Shown here piece after piece: positions 23,260-29,590 of a DNA stretch of 64,000 bases (position 1 is the first letter of the stretch; the number at the start of each line of letters is the position of its first letter). The DNA is taken from contig NZ_JACHGF010000001.1 of the NCBI RefSeq assembly GCF_014202275.1, positions 248,001-312,000 on the forward strand, written 5' to 3'. The notes below the pieces were generated by a model, which was not told the origin of the DNA, did not search any database, and worked only from the letters and a program-made list of their open reading frames with translations. The DNA comes from Rhabdobacter roseus. GTDB lineage: Bacteria > Bacteroidota > Bacteroidia > Cytophagales > Spirosomataceae. Both the position numbers and the translations under genes were made by a program.

Positions 23260-23606
23260 AGCTTGCCTGGCCGCGTGGTGCAAGTACCCCTTCGTTAAGG
23301 TACTTTGCATGTATTTTTACAAGAAGCAAAGATAAGGTCATGTACCCATCCACCAAAGCCCCAGCGGCTCCGCTTCAACCAAATAAATGAACTTTGATTC
23401 GGTCAGGACTGTATTGGAAATAGTTTGTGAAAAAAAATAGTGAGGGCATTCCAACCTTTTAGCCAGCGGTGGAATCATGGTAGAGAAAAAAGTAAGTGAT
23501 GGAGGGCGGACTTTTCCTGGTGGTTTTAGGCCGCCTGTCCTCGCTTGCTCAGGCAGGTACTTTTTATTCACACTAACGGTAAAAAACGAAGCACCCCTAC
23601 CCTTAG
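23260..23606. other. 347-bp divergent intergenic region
   Basis: No gene seen. It lies between the minus-strand hydrolase and the plus-strand ECF sigma gene. It contains one promoter-like site (TTCCAACC-N15-GAATC, 23449-23476) described separately, two aagtacc/ggtactt-type GTAC sites near 23282 and 23300, and otherwise nothing recognisable. Confidence 0.6.
23449..23476 (+). promoter_or_regulatory. Putative ECF-type promoter, site 1
   Basis: TTCCAACC (23449-23456), 15 bases, GAATC (23472-23476), 131 bases before the ECF sigma start codon. The same two blocks with identical spacing occur before the serpin gene (25706-25733), and the first block occurs again before the LVIVD gene (27595). An AAC in the upstream element is typical of ECF promoters. 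I infer autoregulation of the sigma-factor operon. Confidence 0.6.
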
Positions 23607-24176
23607 ATGATAGTAGATGAGCAGGAACTGGTGAACGGTTGTCGCCAGCGCGACCGAATCGCCCAGAAGCGTCTATATGATGTTTTTGCGGGGAAAATGT
23701 TTGCTATTTGCCTGCGCTATATGAAGAACCGAGCCGATGCCGAAGATGTTCTGCAGGACTCCTACGTCAAAATATACGAGAACATTGACACCTTCCGGGG
23801 CGACTGCCCGCTCGAGTACTGGATTCGCTCCGTCGTGGTCAATACGGCCCTCAAGCATCTTCGCAAGCAGAAATACTGGCAAGAGATCGACGATGTCCAT
23901 GCCTACGACAACTACCTGCCGGATGTCGAAGCCACACTTTCCGGATTTCAGCGGCAACAACTTACGGATTTTATTCATGAGCTGCCGCCGGGCTGCCAGA
24001 CCGTCTTTAATTTATATGCCGTGGAAGGCTATCAGCATAACGAGATTGCCCAGCTTATGGGCATCTCAGAAGGTACATCCAAGTCGCAGTACGCCCGAGC
24101 TCGGACGCTGCTTCAACAAAAATTAGTAAAAGAACAACGATTCGACGATGAATCAGTCAGGAAAACAAAGTTTTGA
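23607..24176 (+). CDS. ECF RNA polymerase sigma factor
   Basis: A 189-aa extracytoplasmic-function sigma factor. Region 2 is clear (MFAICLRYMKNRADAEDVLQ, then DSYVKIYENIDTFRG), and region 4 carries the helix-turn-helix YQHNEIAQLMGISEGTSKSQ. It directs RNA polymerase to a small set of promoters, probably in response to an envelope signal. The next gene overlaps it by 29 bases and encodes an anti-sigma-like membrane protein. The putative promoter 5' of this gene is shared with two downstream units. Confidence 0.95.
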   Translation: MIVDEQELVNGCRQRDRIAQKRLYDVFAGKMFAICLRYMKNRADAEDVLQDSYVKIYENIDTFRGDCPLEYWIRSVVVNTALKHLRKQKYWQEIDDVHAYDNYLPDVEATLSGFQRQQLTDFIHELPPGCQTVFNLYAVEGYQHNEIAQLMGISEGTSKSQYARARTLLQQKLVKEQRFDDESVRKTKF

Positions 24177-25689
24177 GGAGGAGTGGAGGCGGGCTCTGGA
24201 GGATGCTTCGGAGGCTCCTCCACCGGGGGTTTGGAGTAAAATCGAAGCCCAACTCGATGAGAATGAAACGAAAGTGGTACCTCTACTACCGCAGTGGTGG
24301 CGCTCGCCCCGGCTGTGGTACGCGGCCGCGGCCATTGGGGCTTTGTTGCTAGTAAGTTGGCCTCTGTGGGACCGTTCGGAGAAAGACGGGCAAAACCGCT
24401 CGCAGGTGGCCCGGTCGGGGAGGGAAGGAAAAGGCGTTGATACAAGTACCTCGGCGGAGCCAGCGGCTCCGTCGGGTACCCCGCCGTTGGTATCTGCCCC
24501 CCGGCTGGCTGAATCTCCGGAGGTAATTTCCTCCGAAGCAAGTACCCAAGCCGAAGCTGTGAAACAACGTGCGTTGGCGCAAAGGCTAGCCGCTACGCCC
24601 CGGCGTAACGGCGCGGCAGACAAGCCTAACGCCCAAGAGCAGCCAGGTACCTCAGGTACCTTGGCGAGCCAGGTACCTTCGTGGGCCGCCGCGCCTGAGG
24701 TAGCCCTAGGCCCGGCCGATCCGTCGGCCCGGCCCGGCAGCGCAGCCCTGCTGGCCGAGGACCAGCCCGCTACAGCTTCTGAGCAGCGGCCCGAAGCGAC
24801 GGCGGAGCTCGCTTTTCTGAGCCCACGGGCTATCCGGGAGCTACCGGTACATACCCAAAAAAGGTACGTCTACTACCGCTACGAGGTAGAGGACGAAGTA
24901 GTGCCGGAGGTATCGGGCAAGAAACAGCAGCTCTGGGCCGGGCTAGGGCTGATGCCCGCCGCCTACAATCCCAACGTGCAGGTTACCTCGCCGCCGTCGG
25001 CTTTTACGGCTGCTAACGCCAGCCGCCAGTCCGTTTCCAACAACTCCAGCAACGCTGGGCTATCCTACGCCCTGCAAACCCAGGCGGGTATAAAGCTTTC
25101 CAAGCATTGGTCCATCGAGTCGGGCATTAGCTACCTACGCGGAAACTCCAGCTTCCAGAGCAGCGGCTACGTGCTGGATGGCGTCAGCAACCGCAGTGCC
25201 AACGTGCTGGAAAACGCCATCCTGGCCAATGCAAGCCGTAGTAATGACTACAATAGTTTTGCCCCCTCTATGCCCAATTACCTGAACCTCGACAAAGTGG
25301 CGGCGTTCTACATTGATCTGGATCAGCAAACGCGTAACGACTACCGCTTTATCCAGCTGCCCGTTCATGCGGGCTATACCATCAATCCCGAAGGGAAGCT
25401 CAGCTATACGGTACTGGGGGGCATGGTAGCCAATGTGTTCCTGCGCAATGACCTCGAAGGAGCTTCGGGCTATACCCTGACCAATACCGCCAGCGATGAT
25501 ATTTACCGGCCGCTAAACTGGTCGGCGGGGACGGGGCTGCGGGTCAATTACCGGTTTTCTACGCATTGGGGGGCCAACCTGACGGGCGCTTACCAACACG
25601 CGCTTTCATCCGGCCTGCAAGACAACAGTACCATCCAGAGCCGCCCGCAGCTCTACGGGTTGTCGTGGGGCGTACGGTATAGTTTCTAA
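24148..25689 (+). CDS. Anti-sigma-like protein fused to an outer-membrane beta-barrel
   Basis: A 513-aa protein with an unusual layout. Residues 1-56 are a soluble acidic helix pair (FEEEWRRALEDASE, PPPGVWSKIEAQLDENE) like the cytoplasmic part of anti-sigma factors. Residues about 57-74 form one membrane helix (LWYAAAAIGALLLVSWPLW). Residues about 75-230 are an Ala/Pro/Glu/Ser-rich linker. Residues about 245-513 form a barrel-like domain ending YGLSWGVRYSF, with the terminal Phe usual in outer-membrane proteins. One chain would span both membranes, as in the dual membrane-spanning anti-sigma (Dma) proteins reported in Bacteroides. It overlaps the sigma gene by 29 bases. Barrel-only function remains possible. 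Confidence 0.8.
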   Translation: MNQSGKQSFEEEWRRALEDASEAPPPGVWSKIEAQLDENETKVVPLLPQWWRSPRLWYAAAAIGALLLVSWPLWDRSEKDGQNRSQVARSGREGKGVDTSTSAEPAAPSGTPPLVSAPRLAESPEVISSEASTQAEAVKQRALAQRLAATPRRNGAADKPNAQEQPGTSGTLASQVPSWAAAPEVALGPADPSARPGSAALLAEDQPATASEQRPEATAELAFLSPRAIRELPVHTQKRYVYYRYEVEDEVVPEVSGKKQQLWAGLGLMPAAYNPNVQVTSPPSAFTAANASRQSVSNNSSNAGLSYALQTQAGIKLSKHWSIESGISYLRGNSSFQSSGYVLDGVSNRSANVLENAILANASRSNDYNSFAPSMPNYLNLDKVAAFYIDLDQQTRNDYRFIQLPVHAGYTINPEGKLSYTVLGGMVANVFLRNDLEGASGYTLTNTASDDIYRPLNWSAGTGLRVNYRFSTHWGANLTGAYQHALSSGLQDNSTIQSRPQLYGLSWGVRYSF

Positions 25690-25705
25690 AAAAAATAGGT
25701 ACTGC

Positions 25706-25733
25706 TTCCAACCTTTCGGCCTAGCGGCGAATC
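25706..25733 (+). promoter_or_regulatory. Putative ECF-type promoter, site 2
   Basis: TTCCAACC (25706-25713), 15 bases, GAATC (25729-25733), 97 bases before the serpin start. Beyond the two blocks, the spacer also shares ttt and agcgg with site 1. The match is too long and too well spaced to be a simple coding remnant, since it lies outside any gene. Confidence 0.6.
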
Positions 25734-25830
25734 TTAGTAACAGAATGCCCACAACGCGGACAGCTGACCGGCCGGAGCTTGTCCGCGCTCAGGCACACTA
25801 ATTCCTAATCCTGTTTACTATTTATTAGCT

Positions 25831-27054
25831 ATGAAAACGCTTAAAACAATGGCTCTTGCCGGGGCTGTACTTGCAGGAATGGGGAGCTGCCGGGAAGGAA
25901 GTACCCAAGACCCCACGCCCATTACCCGGTCGGTACAGGTATCGCCGAGGGTAGCCGCCCGCACTACCGACTTCGCCTTTGATTTCTTCCAATCTTTACA
26001 GGCTACCCAACCTGCCGACAAAAACCTGTTTGTGTCGCCCCTGAGCTTACACATAGCGCTGGGGATGCTCCTCAACGGGGCCGCGGGCGAAACCGCCCAG
26101 CAGATCCAGAACGCGCTGAAGTTGGAGGGCTTGACGCAGGCCGAGCTCAACGAAGCCTACCAAACGCTGATGAAAGACCTGCCCCAGGCCGACTCCAAGG
26201 TAGATCTGGGCCTGGCCAACTCGGTATGGTACCGCAATTCGTTTCAAGTCGAAACCGATTTCCTCAACGTGCTACGCCAATCGTTCGGGGCCGAAGTATC
26301 CGCGCAGGACTTTGGTAATCCGGCTACGGTGAATAAGATCAACCAATGGGCCAGCGACCACACCAACGGAAAAGTAAAGAAGGTACTTGAGCGAGTCGAA
26401 CCCAACCAGGTAATGTTCTTGCTGAATGCCCTGTACTTTAAAGGCGACTGGGCCAAAAAATTCAACGCAGCGAGTACGCAGGACGCGCCTTTTCACCTGG
26501 GCAACGGCTCGCAAAAAACGGTGAAAATGATGAAGCAGGAGGGACGCTTCTCGGCCGCCACTACGGAGGGCTACAAAGCCTTGCAACTACCCTACAGCAG
26601 CGGGCAGTTCAACCTTACGCTGCTGATGCCCCAAGGCAACGCAACCATCCAAAGCCTGGTGGACCAGTTTGGCTCGGCGGACTGGGCTACTCTACAAAGT
26701 ACCCTACGGCCGCAGGAAGTGGAGGTAGGGCTGCCGCGCTTTACGCTCGACTACGAGGTGAACCTTAACAGTACCCTGGAGAAAATGGGTATCCGCCGGG
26801 TGTTTACCGGTGCCGCCGAGCTGACGGGGATCAGCAAGAATGATCAGCTGCTGGTGAGCTTCGTGAAGCAAAATACCTACCTGGGCGTGGATGAAAAAGG
26901 CACCGAAGCCGCCGCCGTGACCACCATCGGGATAGAGTTAACTTCGGCACCGGCGCAGGCCGTCCCCTACATTTTCGACCGTCCGTTTGTATTTATTATC
27001 AGTGAAAAAACGTCCAATACCATTTTGTTTGCCGGACGTATCATGAATCCCTAG
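25831..27054 (+). CDS. Serpin-family lipoprotein
   Basis: A 407-aa serine-protease inhibitor of the serpin fold with a lipoprotein signal (LAGAVLAGMGSC), so it would sit on the membrane facing the periplasm or outside. Serpin blocks are clear: NLFVSPLSLHIALGMLLNGA, FLLNALYFKGDWAKKF and the C-terminal FDRPFVFIISEKTSNTILFA. The reactive-loop hinge GTEAAAVTTIGIEL keeps the small residues that inhibitory serpins need. Counting from the hinge Gly as P15 puts Thr-Ser at P1-P1', a tentative assignment. It starts the second unit of the putative ECF regulon and is followed by a small lipoprotein. Confidence 0.93.
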   Translation: MKTLKTMALAGAVLAGMGSCREGSTQDPTPITRSVQVSPRVAARTTDFAFDFFQSLQATQPADKNLFVSPLSLHIALGMLLNGAAGETAQQIQNALKLEGLTQAELNEAYQTLMKDLPQADSKVDLGLANSVWYRNSFQVETDFLNVLRQSFGAEVSAQDFGNPATVNKINQWASDHTNGKVKKVLERVEPNQVMFLLNALYFKGDWAKKFNAASTQDAPFHLGNGSQKTVKMMKQEGRFSAATTEGYKALQLPYSSGQFNLTLLMPQGNATIQSLVDQFGSADWATLQSTLRPQEVEVGLPRFTLDYEVNLNSTLEKMGIRRVFTGAAELTGISKNDQLLVSFVKQNTYLGVDEKGTEAAAVTTIGIELTSAPAQAVPYIFDRPFVFIISEKTSNTILFAGRIMNP

Positions 27055-27091
27055 TACCATACCATAATTAAATACAGATTTTTCATTAGCC

Positions 27092-27520
27092 ATGAAATCC
27101 TTTAAAAAACAACTAGCAAGCGTAGCGCTGGGGGTACTTTCGCTGCTCTCGGCTTGCGACTCCCCCGAGCTGGCCCAGATCGACGCGCCCCTCGTAGGTA
27201 CCTGGCAGCTGGATGCCGTTACGTACGGGCTTACGGGGATCACCGTTAGGGGCGACAGCCTGCCCTTCACCGAGAGCCGGGAGTACACCACGGAGGGTAC
27301 TTTTACCATCAAGCATGAAGAACGCATGATCGAAACAGGTACCTTCTACACGGGCCGCAACAGCACAGGGCTCCTGTACCAGGAAGCGGTGTACTACCCC
27401 CAAGACACCACCTATCAGGCTTACGAAGTCTCTTCGGAGGGGCGTTTGTATCTGTATGAGCGCAGTGCGCAGGGGGCCGTCCTCGCCGACGGCGCCACGT
27501 ATGAATACAAGCGTCAGTAA
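27092..27520 (+). CDS. Small lipoprotein, lipocalin-like
   Basis: A 142-aa lipoprotein (lipobox ALGVLSLLSAC) with a beta-rich body beginning LVGTWQLDAVTYGL, a pattern common in lipocalin-like and META-type small envelope proteins. It lies 37 bases after the serpin gene and before a terminator, so both share a transcript. A role as an envelope-stress partner is an inference from position only. Confidence 0.65.
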   Translation: MKSFKKQLASVALGVLSLLSACDSPELAQIDAPLVGTWQLDAVTYGLTGITVRGDSLPFTESREYTTEGTFTIKHEERMIETGTFYTGRNSTGLLYQEAVYYPQDTTYQAYEVSSEGRLYLYERSAQGAVLADGATYEYKRQ

Positions 27521-27544
27521 TTGCTGACGTTTTCGGGGTGCGTT

Positions 27545-27585
27545 ATCGTCCGGGGGCTCTGCTTTCGGACGATTTTGTTTTTTTC
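27545..27585 (+). terminator. Rho-independent terminator
   Basis: Perfect 8-bp stem (atcgtccg 27545-27552 / cggacgat 27566-27573) followed by a T-rich run. It ends the serpin unit, ten bases before the next putative ECF-type promoter, which supports the reading that a new transcript starts there. Confidence 0.85.
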
Positions 27586-27594
27586 TTACCGTCG

Positions 27595-27622
27595 TTCCAA
27601 CCTTTTTTCGGGTACTTTACTC
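27595..27622 (+). promoter_or_regulatory. Putative ECF-type promoter, site 3
   Basis: TTCCAACC (27595-27602), 15 bases, then TACTC (27618-27622). The second block is weaker than in sites 1 and 2 (A and TC in the same places). It is 39 bases before the LVIVD gene and directly after a terminator. Confidence 0.5.
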
Positions 27623-29005: not shown

Positions 29006-29590
29006 ATGAAAAAGGTACTTATACCGCTGCTGGCGGCGCTGGGCTTCGTTACGGCAGCGATGGGCCAGAATGCGTCGTTTAAAAAAGCGTACGTCAATCA
29101 TACGGAGATCGGCTTGTTGCTGGGAAATGTACGCTATGTACCCTACGTAGGAAGCGGCGAAATGGTAGAAAAACGCCAAAACCTGACGGTGCAGATGTTC
29201 AACGGGCTACAGCTGAGCCGCCGCCTGGCAGCGGGCGTGACCGTAGGAATGGACCGCTACACGGCGGCGCTCGTCACGCCTATCATGGCCGGTGTTCGGT
29301 ATGATCTTACCCGGAAGGAAAATGCCCGCTTCTTTGCCAGCGCCGACGCGGGCTACGGCTTCACTTGGTTTCATTCCGACGCCACCAACTACCATACCCA
29401 GGGCGGGCTAGCGCTCAACCCCGGCCTGGGGCTGCGGTTTGGGAAGCCCGCCGCTACCAATTTTACGTTATCCATGGGTTATAAGTACCAGCAGGTAACG
29501 GTAGACAAGCCGCCGTTCTGGACGGATACTGAACGCACGGAGACGCGCCTGTACAACCGCCTGGCGCTTCGCCTGGGGCTGAGTTTTTAA
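29006..29590 (+). CDS. Putative outer-membrane barrel protein
   Basis: A 194-aa protein with a signal peptide (MKKVLIPLLAALGFVTAAMGQ) and short beta-strand patterns ending in YNRLALRLGLSF, as small outer-membrane barrels do. It is cotranscribed with the LVIVD lipoprotein. A specific function cannot be assigned. Confidence 0.7.
   Translation: MKKVLIPLLAALGFVTAAMGQNASFKKAYVNHTEIGLLLGNVRYVPYVGSGEMVEKRQNLTVQMFNGLQLSRRLAAGVTVGMDRYTAALVTPIMAGVRYDLTRKENARFFASADAGYGFTWFHSDATNYHTQGGLALNPGLGLRFGKPAATNFTLSMGYKYQQVTVDKPPFWTDTERTETRLYNRLALRLGLSF

Follow-up and report, generated by a model that had tools for sequence, protein, structure and literature searches.

The sigma factor locus and its three predicted promoters

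The window, a 64,000-nt stretch of Rhabdobacter roseus DNA (NZ_JACHGF010000001.1, assembly GCF_014202275.1, positions 248,001 to 312,000 of the forward strand), encodes an extracytoplasmic function (ECF) sigma factor, a predicted anti-sigma factor, a serpin and an LVIVD-repeat lipoprotein in succession (Table 1). Three copies of the octamer TTCCAACC stand within this locus, at 23449, 25706 and 27595, each followed at exactly 15 nt by a second block that reads GAATC at the first two sites and TACTC at the third. An earlier note on this DNA had described these positions, their spacing and their placement outside genes, and all are confirmed here. The first site lies 158 nt upstream of the ECF start, the second 17 nt past the end of the anti-sigma gene and 125 nt upstream of the serpin start, and the third 67 nt upstream of the LVIVD start, just past a terminator-like hairpin that separates it from the serpin unit. 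Terminator-like sites of this kind number 12 in the region against 8.5 expected.

The sigma factor has the composition of the ECF class, with regions 2 and 4 present, region 3 absent and a length of ∼190 residues; among the 25 of 87 NCBIfam matches listed, the ECF superfamily model alone exceeds its cut-off. Its gene overlaps that of the anti-sigma factor, an arrangement kept in relatives. The serpin displays the full-length PF00079 fold and contains the sequence GTEAAA, the inhibitory hinge of serpins. The gene for the 142-residue lipoprotein is probably co-transcribed with it, and homologs of this lipoprotein are found behind the motif in other genomes (loci L118, L121, L205 and L305), as are homologs of the LVIVD protein (L114, L185, L236 and L318). 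The small secreted protein that follows the LVIVD gene matched no Pfam family.

Table 1. Features of the locus (positions within the window).
Feature	Position	Strand	Evidence
Predicted ECF promoter 1, sigma/anti-sigma operon	23449..23476	+	TTCCAACC-N15-GAATC
Leader word ACGAAGCACCCCTA, shortly upstream of the ECF start codon	23586..23599	+	conserved
ECF sigma factor, 189 aa	23607..24176	+	Sigma70_r2 1.2e-13; Sigma70_r4_2 3.2e-14
Predicted anti-sigma factor, 513 residues: inner-membrane helix, disordered tether, C-terminal outer-membrane barrel	24148..25689	+	OMP_b-brl_2 (PF13568) 1e-7; alignment; model; Foldseek OmpA
Predicted ECF promoter 2, serpin unit	25706..25733	+	TTCCAACC-N15-GAATC
Serpin, 407 aa	25831..27054	+	PF00079 1.9e-111, profile positions 3-370 of 370; lipobox GMGSC by eye
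Small lipoprotein, 142 aa	27092..27520	+	37-nt gap to serpin gene
Terminator-like hairpin ending the serpin unit	27545..27573	+	13 pairs, then T run
Predicted ECF promoter 3, LVIVD unit	27595..27622	+	TTCCAACC-N15-TACTC
LVIVD-repeat lipoprotein, 439 aa	27662..28981	+	PF08309 9.3e-18; lipobox LASC by eye
Small secreted protein, LVIVD unit	29006..29590	+	barrel-like by eye; 24-nt gap to LVIVD gene

The leader word ACGAAGCACCCCTA recurs with at most two changes upstream of sigma ortholog starts in several related genera, often trailed by CTTCG and then ATG (region 23586-23607), and could be a translational control element. Both predicted leaders fold as hairpins (−24.1 kcal/mol for the serpin leader, 25742-25830, and −34.8 kcal/mol for the sigma leader, 23485-23606, computed without a shuffle control). 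The two leaders have a GCTCAGGCA word in common. Neither this word nor the spacer words that the earlier note had seen shared by the first two sites were seen at the nine relatives' loci examined.

A fixed two-block word across the R. roseus genome

The octamer alone was rejected as evidence, with six copies in the window against 2.6 expected, a count that 7 of 100 shuffles also reach. The two-block word behaves differently. The 6.9-Mb genome (27 contigs) contains 19 TTCCAACCTTT sites against 10 in the reversed control, and TC stands at the exact offset in 14 of these 19 (binomial P 1.2e-13). The exact form TTCCAACCTTT-N13-AnTC occurs 11 times genome-wide and never in the reversed control, and nine additional sites carry one mismatch. 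Allowing up to two mismatches yields 68 matches against 44 in the control; the 48 with exactly two are indistinguishable from background and were rejected as targets.

Of the 11 exact sites, 10 stand before the ECF gene or a lipoprotein operon. Besides the sigma operon, the serpin unit and the LVIVD unit of the window, the exact sites precede a 95-residue lipoprotein, an FKBP-type isomerase lipoprotein, a META-domain lipoprotein, a Kazal lipoprotein with a second lipoprotein behind it, two unclassified lipoproteins, and a pair of related lipoproteins of ∼140 residues. Five of the nine one-mismatch sites also precede lipoproteins; two of these five loci are a second LVIVD-like unit and a near duplicate of the locus for the 95-residue lipoprotein. 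Another of the nine lies in a gene. At two of the 10 exact sites (C8:36976 and C8:275710) the longest open frame, beginning at TTG, crosses the site, and the lipoprotein start was set further down by eye. The genome thus holds 12 further lipoprotein-preceding sites outside the window (seven exact and five with one mismatch), and the regulon, whose window members stand as first described, appears larger than had been claimed.

Association of the word with one sigma factor

Sigma70_r4_2 matches number 72 in the genome, 68 of them above the cut-off, and the upstream regions of 70 were examined, the two omitted being below the Pfam cut-off. Only the window locus carries the motif: none of the other 69 has it upstream at up to one mismatch, so that the idea of a motif common to all ECF operons of the genome was rejected. 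The closest sigma paralogs are at most 42% identical.

The association extends to the relatives, a set of 101 genomes placed in Spirosomataceae by inference. The anti-sigma factor is matched at E 0.001 in 92 of them, some weakly, and the 30 best loci commonly have the genes in the order sigma, anti-sigma, serpin; by eye, a TTCCAAC-type site lies upstream of the serpin in 17 of the 30. A scripted search for TTCCAAC-N19-TC, up to 330 nt upstream and with at most one mismatch, recovers the site for 27 of 29 sigma orthologs. One of the two misses stems from a wrongly placed start and does have the site, and the other locus ends too early to test; L083, outside the script's scoring, has the site as well, which brings the count to 29 of 29 testable sigma orthologs. 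Most ECF factors with an anti-sigma factor regulate themselves, and autoregulation of this sigma factor from its own predicted promoter is the best explanation of the pattern. Absence of the motif where the anti-sigma factor is absent is only weakly consistent with this link: in nine small genomes (genera g10, g13 and g30), of which two match the anti-sigma factor weakly and the other seven not at all, there is no exact AnTC site, and the three GBGTC or GAATC matches all lie in genes.

Reach of the word within the family and beyond

Searches of the relatives for the two-block motif, as the earlier note had advised, return far more matches than their controls in every form used. The exact TTCCAACCTTT-N13-AnTC occurs 78 times (7 in the reversed control), TTCCAACC-N15-GBGTC 242 times (21) and TTCCAACC-N15-GAATC 100 times (10), and the strict form TTCCAACCnTT-N12-GnGTC occurs 78 times in 23 chosen family genomes, with none in the control. 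Beyond the family, a search of 390 genomes of the same class for this last form, the only one searched there, gives six matches against six in the control. This is the level of chance; spread of the GnGTC form through the class is therefore rejected, and the promoter word appears to be lineage-specific. The only one of the six outside matches that comes from the same order (L389, in genome G258, of a different family) precedes a lipoprotein-like gene, a hint that the word may extend beyond the family.

The surroundings were read for 169 matches in relatives (109 loci and 60 fetched sequences; 162 distinct), which are part of all matches, several plain sigma promoters having been left out. Among 135 distinct strong sites (TTCCAACCnTT), 123 are intergenic by an open reading frame (ORF) rule. 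An ORF lies downstream of 112 of the 123; it is a lipoprotein by rule in 58 cases, an ECF sigma factor in 21, a serpin in one and something else in 32. Background lipoprotein rates are much lower, at 8 of 133 ORFs in the sigma loci of the R. roseus genome and 17 of 95 ORFs flanking 80 motif loci (Fisher P 1.6e-16 and 3.4e-7, respectively). An acidic residue lies within four positions after the lipid cysteine in 39 of the 58 lipoprotein or serpin targets scored for it, a count taken without a control; acidic residues after the lipid cysteine fit the surface export signals of Bacteroidota.

One target family recurs, marked by the sequence RCPxxxxCI (C17:3561 type; L017:1551-1991 and its relatives L182, L261, L262 and L290). 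Its R. roseus member has no Pfam match. Considered as a possible further inhibitor fold, it gives an all-beta model with a predicted local distance difference test score (pLDDT) of 81, no Foldseek match at E 0.001 and uninformative VIA-align matches. In genus g23 (L133, L134 and L314), the motif stands before small regulators that by eye resemble LytTR proteins, which suggests a cascade in that genus.

Joint change of the downstream block

The earlier note had written the downstream block as nAnTC. This holds for the window sites; GnRTC describes the predicted −10 word better across the family. In genus g31 the sigma promoter reads GCGTC. The same word is found in 22 of 27 g31 sites and in 1 of 51 sites of other genera (Fisher P 1.2e-13, with congeners sharing sites), and all six g31 serpins unlinked to the sigma locus have a site, each reading nCGTC. 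The promoter of the sigma gene and the sites before distant targets have changed together, which is what altered specificity of a single sigma factor would leave behind. A general rule of one −10 word per genus for sigma promoter and targets was rejected: it holds for g31 and fails for g27 and g32.

Protease inhibitor genes chosen without the motif

The inhibitor theme was examined from the opposite direction, with genes chosen by Pfam family alone and scored for an upstream TTCCAACC-N18-TC at up to one mismatch. Pfam searches of the 101 family genomes find serpins in 67, Kazal domains in 31 and Kunitz domains in 9. The motif lies upstream of 37 of 67 serpins, 19 of 35 Kazal genes and 5 of 9 Kunitz genes (6 of 9 with a wider window), or 61 of 111 inhibitor genes in total, and serpins carry it both where they are linked to the sigma locus (22 of 34) and where they are not (15 of 33). 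Shuffled upstream DNA gives an expectation of 0.81 serpin, 0.20 Kazal and 0.10 Kunitz genes (∼1.1 in all), and the reversed-sequence control finds none in any of the three families. Spacing is again strict: in 69 inhibitor loci (30 serpin, 9 Kunitz and 30 Kazal), TC occurs forty times at offset 26 from TTCCAACC, and no other offset between 18 and 35 has it more than six times. The positions of these loci at which transcription would be expected to start are purine-rich. In 14 control genomes, Kunitz and Kazal domains are found in none and serpins in three.

Two arrangements at individual loci deserve mention. In genus g5 (4 loci), the serpin follows the sigma/anti-sigma pair, so that read-through is possible. 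In genome G003, the serpin beside the sigma locus (C2:2944482-2945563) is itself broken by a stop, and the anti-sigma factor appears as two separate matches.

Anti-sigma architecture and proposed mechanism

The anti-sigma factor was modeled with AlphaFold2 on 16 aligned sequences. Its N-terminus contains two model helices of low confidence (residues 5-20 and 26-41), and W13, P24 and W29 are invariant in the alignment. A helix of modest confidence (54-83) covers a conserved hydrophobic stretch, judged by eye, and residues 81-254 are disordered, poorly alignable and below a pLDDT of 50. The C-terminal region forms a barrel (strands 261-512) with pLDDT mostly above 80 except for one loop, and its best Foldseek match is OmpA (6.4e-9). 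The barrel type proposed in the earlier note is thus supported; as modeled, the architecture is that of the known Dma/Reo class and not a new one.

Taken together, the data make it likely that the window sigma factor runs a Dma-type ECF regulon, specific to this lineage, whose envelope lipoproteins include protease inhibitors. The single regulon first proposed from the window (sigma factor, barrel-type anti-sigma factor, serpin, two lipoproteins and a barrel-like protein) gains support from the genome-wide and family-wide comparison. The N-terminal domain of the anti-sigma factor would hold the sigma factor at the inner membrane, while the rest of the chain would reach through the periplasm to a barrel in the outer membrane. 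Damage to the outer envelope, perhaps proteolysis itself, would be felt at the barrel and cause the anti-sigma factor to release the sigma factor. Outer-membrane damage is the likely signal because of the Dma/Reo precedent. The freed sigma factor, with RNA polymerase, would then start transcription at TTCCAACC[n]TT-N12-GnRTC promoters: its own operon, in an autoregulatory loop, the neighboring serpin and LVIVD units, and ∼12 scattered lipoprotein loci. The products would be envelope lipoproteins, which across the family include putative serine-protease inhibitors of three unrelated folds (serpin, Kazal and Kunitz). Since inhibitors of three folds lie behind one promoter word, defense of the cell surface against proteases, whether foreign or made by the cell itself, is the most likely role of the response, in addition to envelope repair.

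The presence of the same promoter before Kazal and Kunitz inhibitor genes lends circumstantial support to the earlier suggestion that the regulon guards the envelope against proteases. This suggestion remains an interpretation, most targets being lipoproteins of unknown function. A more specific version is tentative and on balance doubtful: the barrel loops and the tether might act as ‘bait’ that foreign proteases cut, the freed sigma factor would drive the inhibitors, and inhibition would end the signal. In such a circuit, the inhibitor fold may be set by the lineage and exchanged from genus to genus behind an unchanged promoter.

Alternative explanations and contrary observations

Chance pairing of a frequent octamer with a weak second block might seem favored by the unremarkable octamer count in the window and by two-mismatch matches at background. 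It is already refuted by controls of zero (in the R. roseus genome, and in 23 genomes for the strict form), by the exact spacing and by recovery of the motif from independently chosen genes, which leaves it a negligible probability. It is quite improbable that the word is instead bound by a transcriptional activator or repressor that has the ECF gene as just one more target. The site does stand upstream of many genes, and its −35/−10 logic is deduced from sequence alone, but the two blocks are unequal, non-palindromic and held at one fixed spacing. Their AAC-type upstream and TC-type downstream elements resemble those of other ECF promoters, the expected start positions are purine-rich, and the site precedes every testable sigma ortholog. 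Several paralogous ECF factors might also read overlapping promoters, in which case the set would be an envelope response common to several factors rather than one factor's regulon. The many Sigma70_r4_2 matches above the cut-off and the identity of up to 42% between paralogs leave room for this; it is nevertheless unlikely, as no other examined sigma locus of the genome has the motif upstream and ECF factors with an anti-sigma factor mostly autoregulate.

The serious rival concerns the theme. The regulon may serve general outer-membrane lipoprotein expression (vesicles or surface remodeling, as with Dma and EcfO of Bacteroides), with the inhibitors as passengers by virtue of being lipoproteins. 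This is a real possibility, if not the favored one: most targets are lipoproteins of unknown function, and related Bacteroidales systems control NigD lipoproteins and vesicles, according to the available portions of PMC13088901, PMC9308784 and PMC13114119. Against it, the inhibitor families are uncommon in the 14 control genomes, and yet more than half of the inhibitor genes of the family (61/111) carry the motif. Serine-protease defense remains the best reading of what the targets share, with general envelope repair as its rival.

Several observations weigh against a single inhibitor-bearing lipoprotein regulon. Some concern the sites: in R. roseus, the exact site C2:688381 lies inside the 3′ end of a gene that is glycosyltransferase-like by eye. 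In relatives, 32 of the 112 strong intergenic sites precede ORFs that are not lipoproteins by rule (∼6 look like missed lipoproteins by eye), and of the 27 weaker sites lacking the TT, 12 are in genes and 15 intergenic (5 before lipoproteins, 3 before sigma factors, 1 before a serpin). Most scanned targets have no Pfam family. The P values given above overstate the case because congeners' sites are not independent and because C2:585852 and C2:589940 look like duplicates. Others concern specificity: four sigma promoters seen in g27 read GGGTC or GTGTC, and yet GAATC and GBGTC sites stand at 20:7 in that genus, while in g32 the sigma promoters read GTGTC and several serpins have GAATC. The serpin of G009, one of the nine small genomes, has an exact TTCCAACC-N18-TC site although no anti-sigma ortholog is detectable there. 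Among the inhibitor genes, no site within one mismatch stands before 30 of the 67 serpins, 16 of the 35 Kazal genes and 4 of the 9 Kunitz genes; the serpins without a site include all seven of g23, all six of g27 and all seven of g5. The opposite-strand control, empty for serpin and Kunitz genes, returns 3 of 35 Kazal genes.

A possible iterated palindrome in the window

Unconnected with the promoter word, GGTACC-type words are heavily over-represented in the window (GGTACC 120 against 17.6 expected, GGTACTT 76 against 3.9, AAGTACC 56 against 3.5). GGTACC reaches 1.60 per kb in loci of the R. roseus genome and 0.21 in loci of relatives, a pattern that resembles a highly iterated palindrome of the R. 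roseus lineage.

Comparison with known systems

Among the literature matches listed, none describes an ECF factor of Bacteroidota whose regulon contains serpins, Kazal or Kunitz inhibitors, in agreement with the earlier note's remark on serpins. The type of sensor has been described before. What appears to be new is the promoter word, the reach of the regulon across the lineage and its inhibitor theme. The closest counterpart is Dma/Das of Bacteroides thetaiotaomicron, an ECF21 sigma factor with a dual membrane-spanning anti-sigma factor. The available part of its description gives the same plan, a sigma gene adjoining that of an anti-sigma factor whose N-terminal sigma-binding region is followed by a single transmembrane helix, a long disordered tether and, at the C-terminus, a barrel (PMC13088901). 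Its known outputs are vesicle formation and host-glycan loci, and no serpin, Kazal or Kunitz target is seen in that part of the source (PMC13088901). The promoter word described here, in its GnGTC form, falls to chance outside its family of Cytophagales.

EcfO-Reo of Phocaeicola vulgatus and Bacteroides fragilis shares the anti-sigma architecture, responds to antibacterial toxins that presumably stress the envelope, and has surface NigD lipoproteins in its regulon, as far as the accessible portions of PMC9308784 and PMC13114119 describe it. These targets are not inhibitors, and the terms ‘serpin’ and ‘protease inhibitor’ are absent from the accessible text of PMC9308784; a recognition sequence for EcfO has been published, according to the accessible part of PMC7366714. 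Pfam scans of 17 motif-locus proteins name no NigD family, in scans that included no NigD-specific search.

The nearest solved relatives of the window serpin include the top matches 5ncs and 5ncu (named Serpin) as well as 5ncw and 5nct (named miropin). Miropin, from Tannerella forsythia, is a bacterial serpin of the same fold; no tie to an ECF factor was found for it among the literature matches listed. To our knowledge, little is settled about what bacteria use serpins, Kazal and Kunitz inhibitors for, and the present analysis places all three under one predicted stress switch.

Sigma-V/RsiV of Bacilli, the lysozyme response, offers a precedent of another kind, an ECF circuit in which the anti-sigma factor senses the aggressor enzyme; its anti-sigma factor, envelope and outputs differ from those of the window system, as described in the available part of PMC4183432. 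If the ‘bait’ circuit were true, it would be the protease counterpart of this lysozyme-sensing pair. Dma-type ECF outputs found in print concern a few gut Bacteroidales, and to these the present analysis adds a family of environmental Bacteroidota, for which it supplies a sharply defined promoter word, a predicted set of target genes and a theme for their function.

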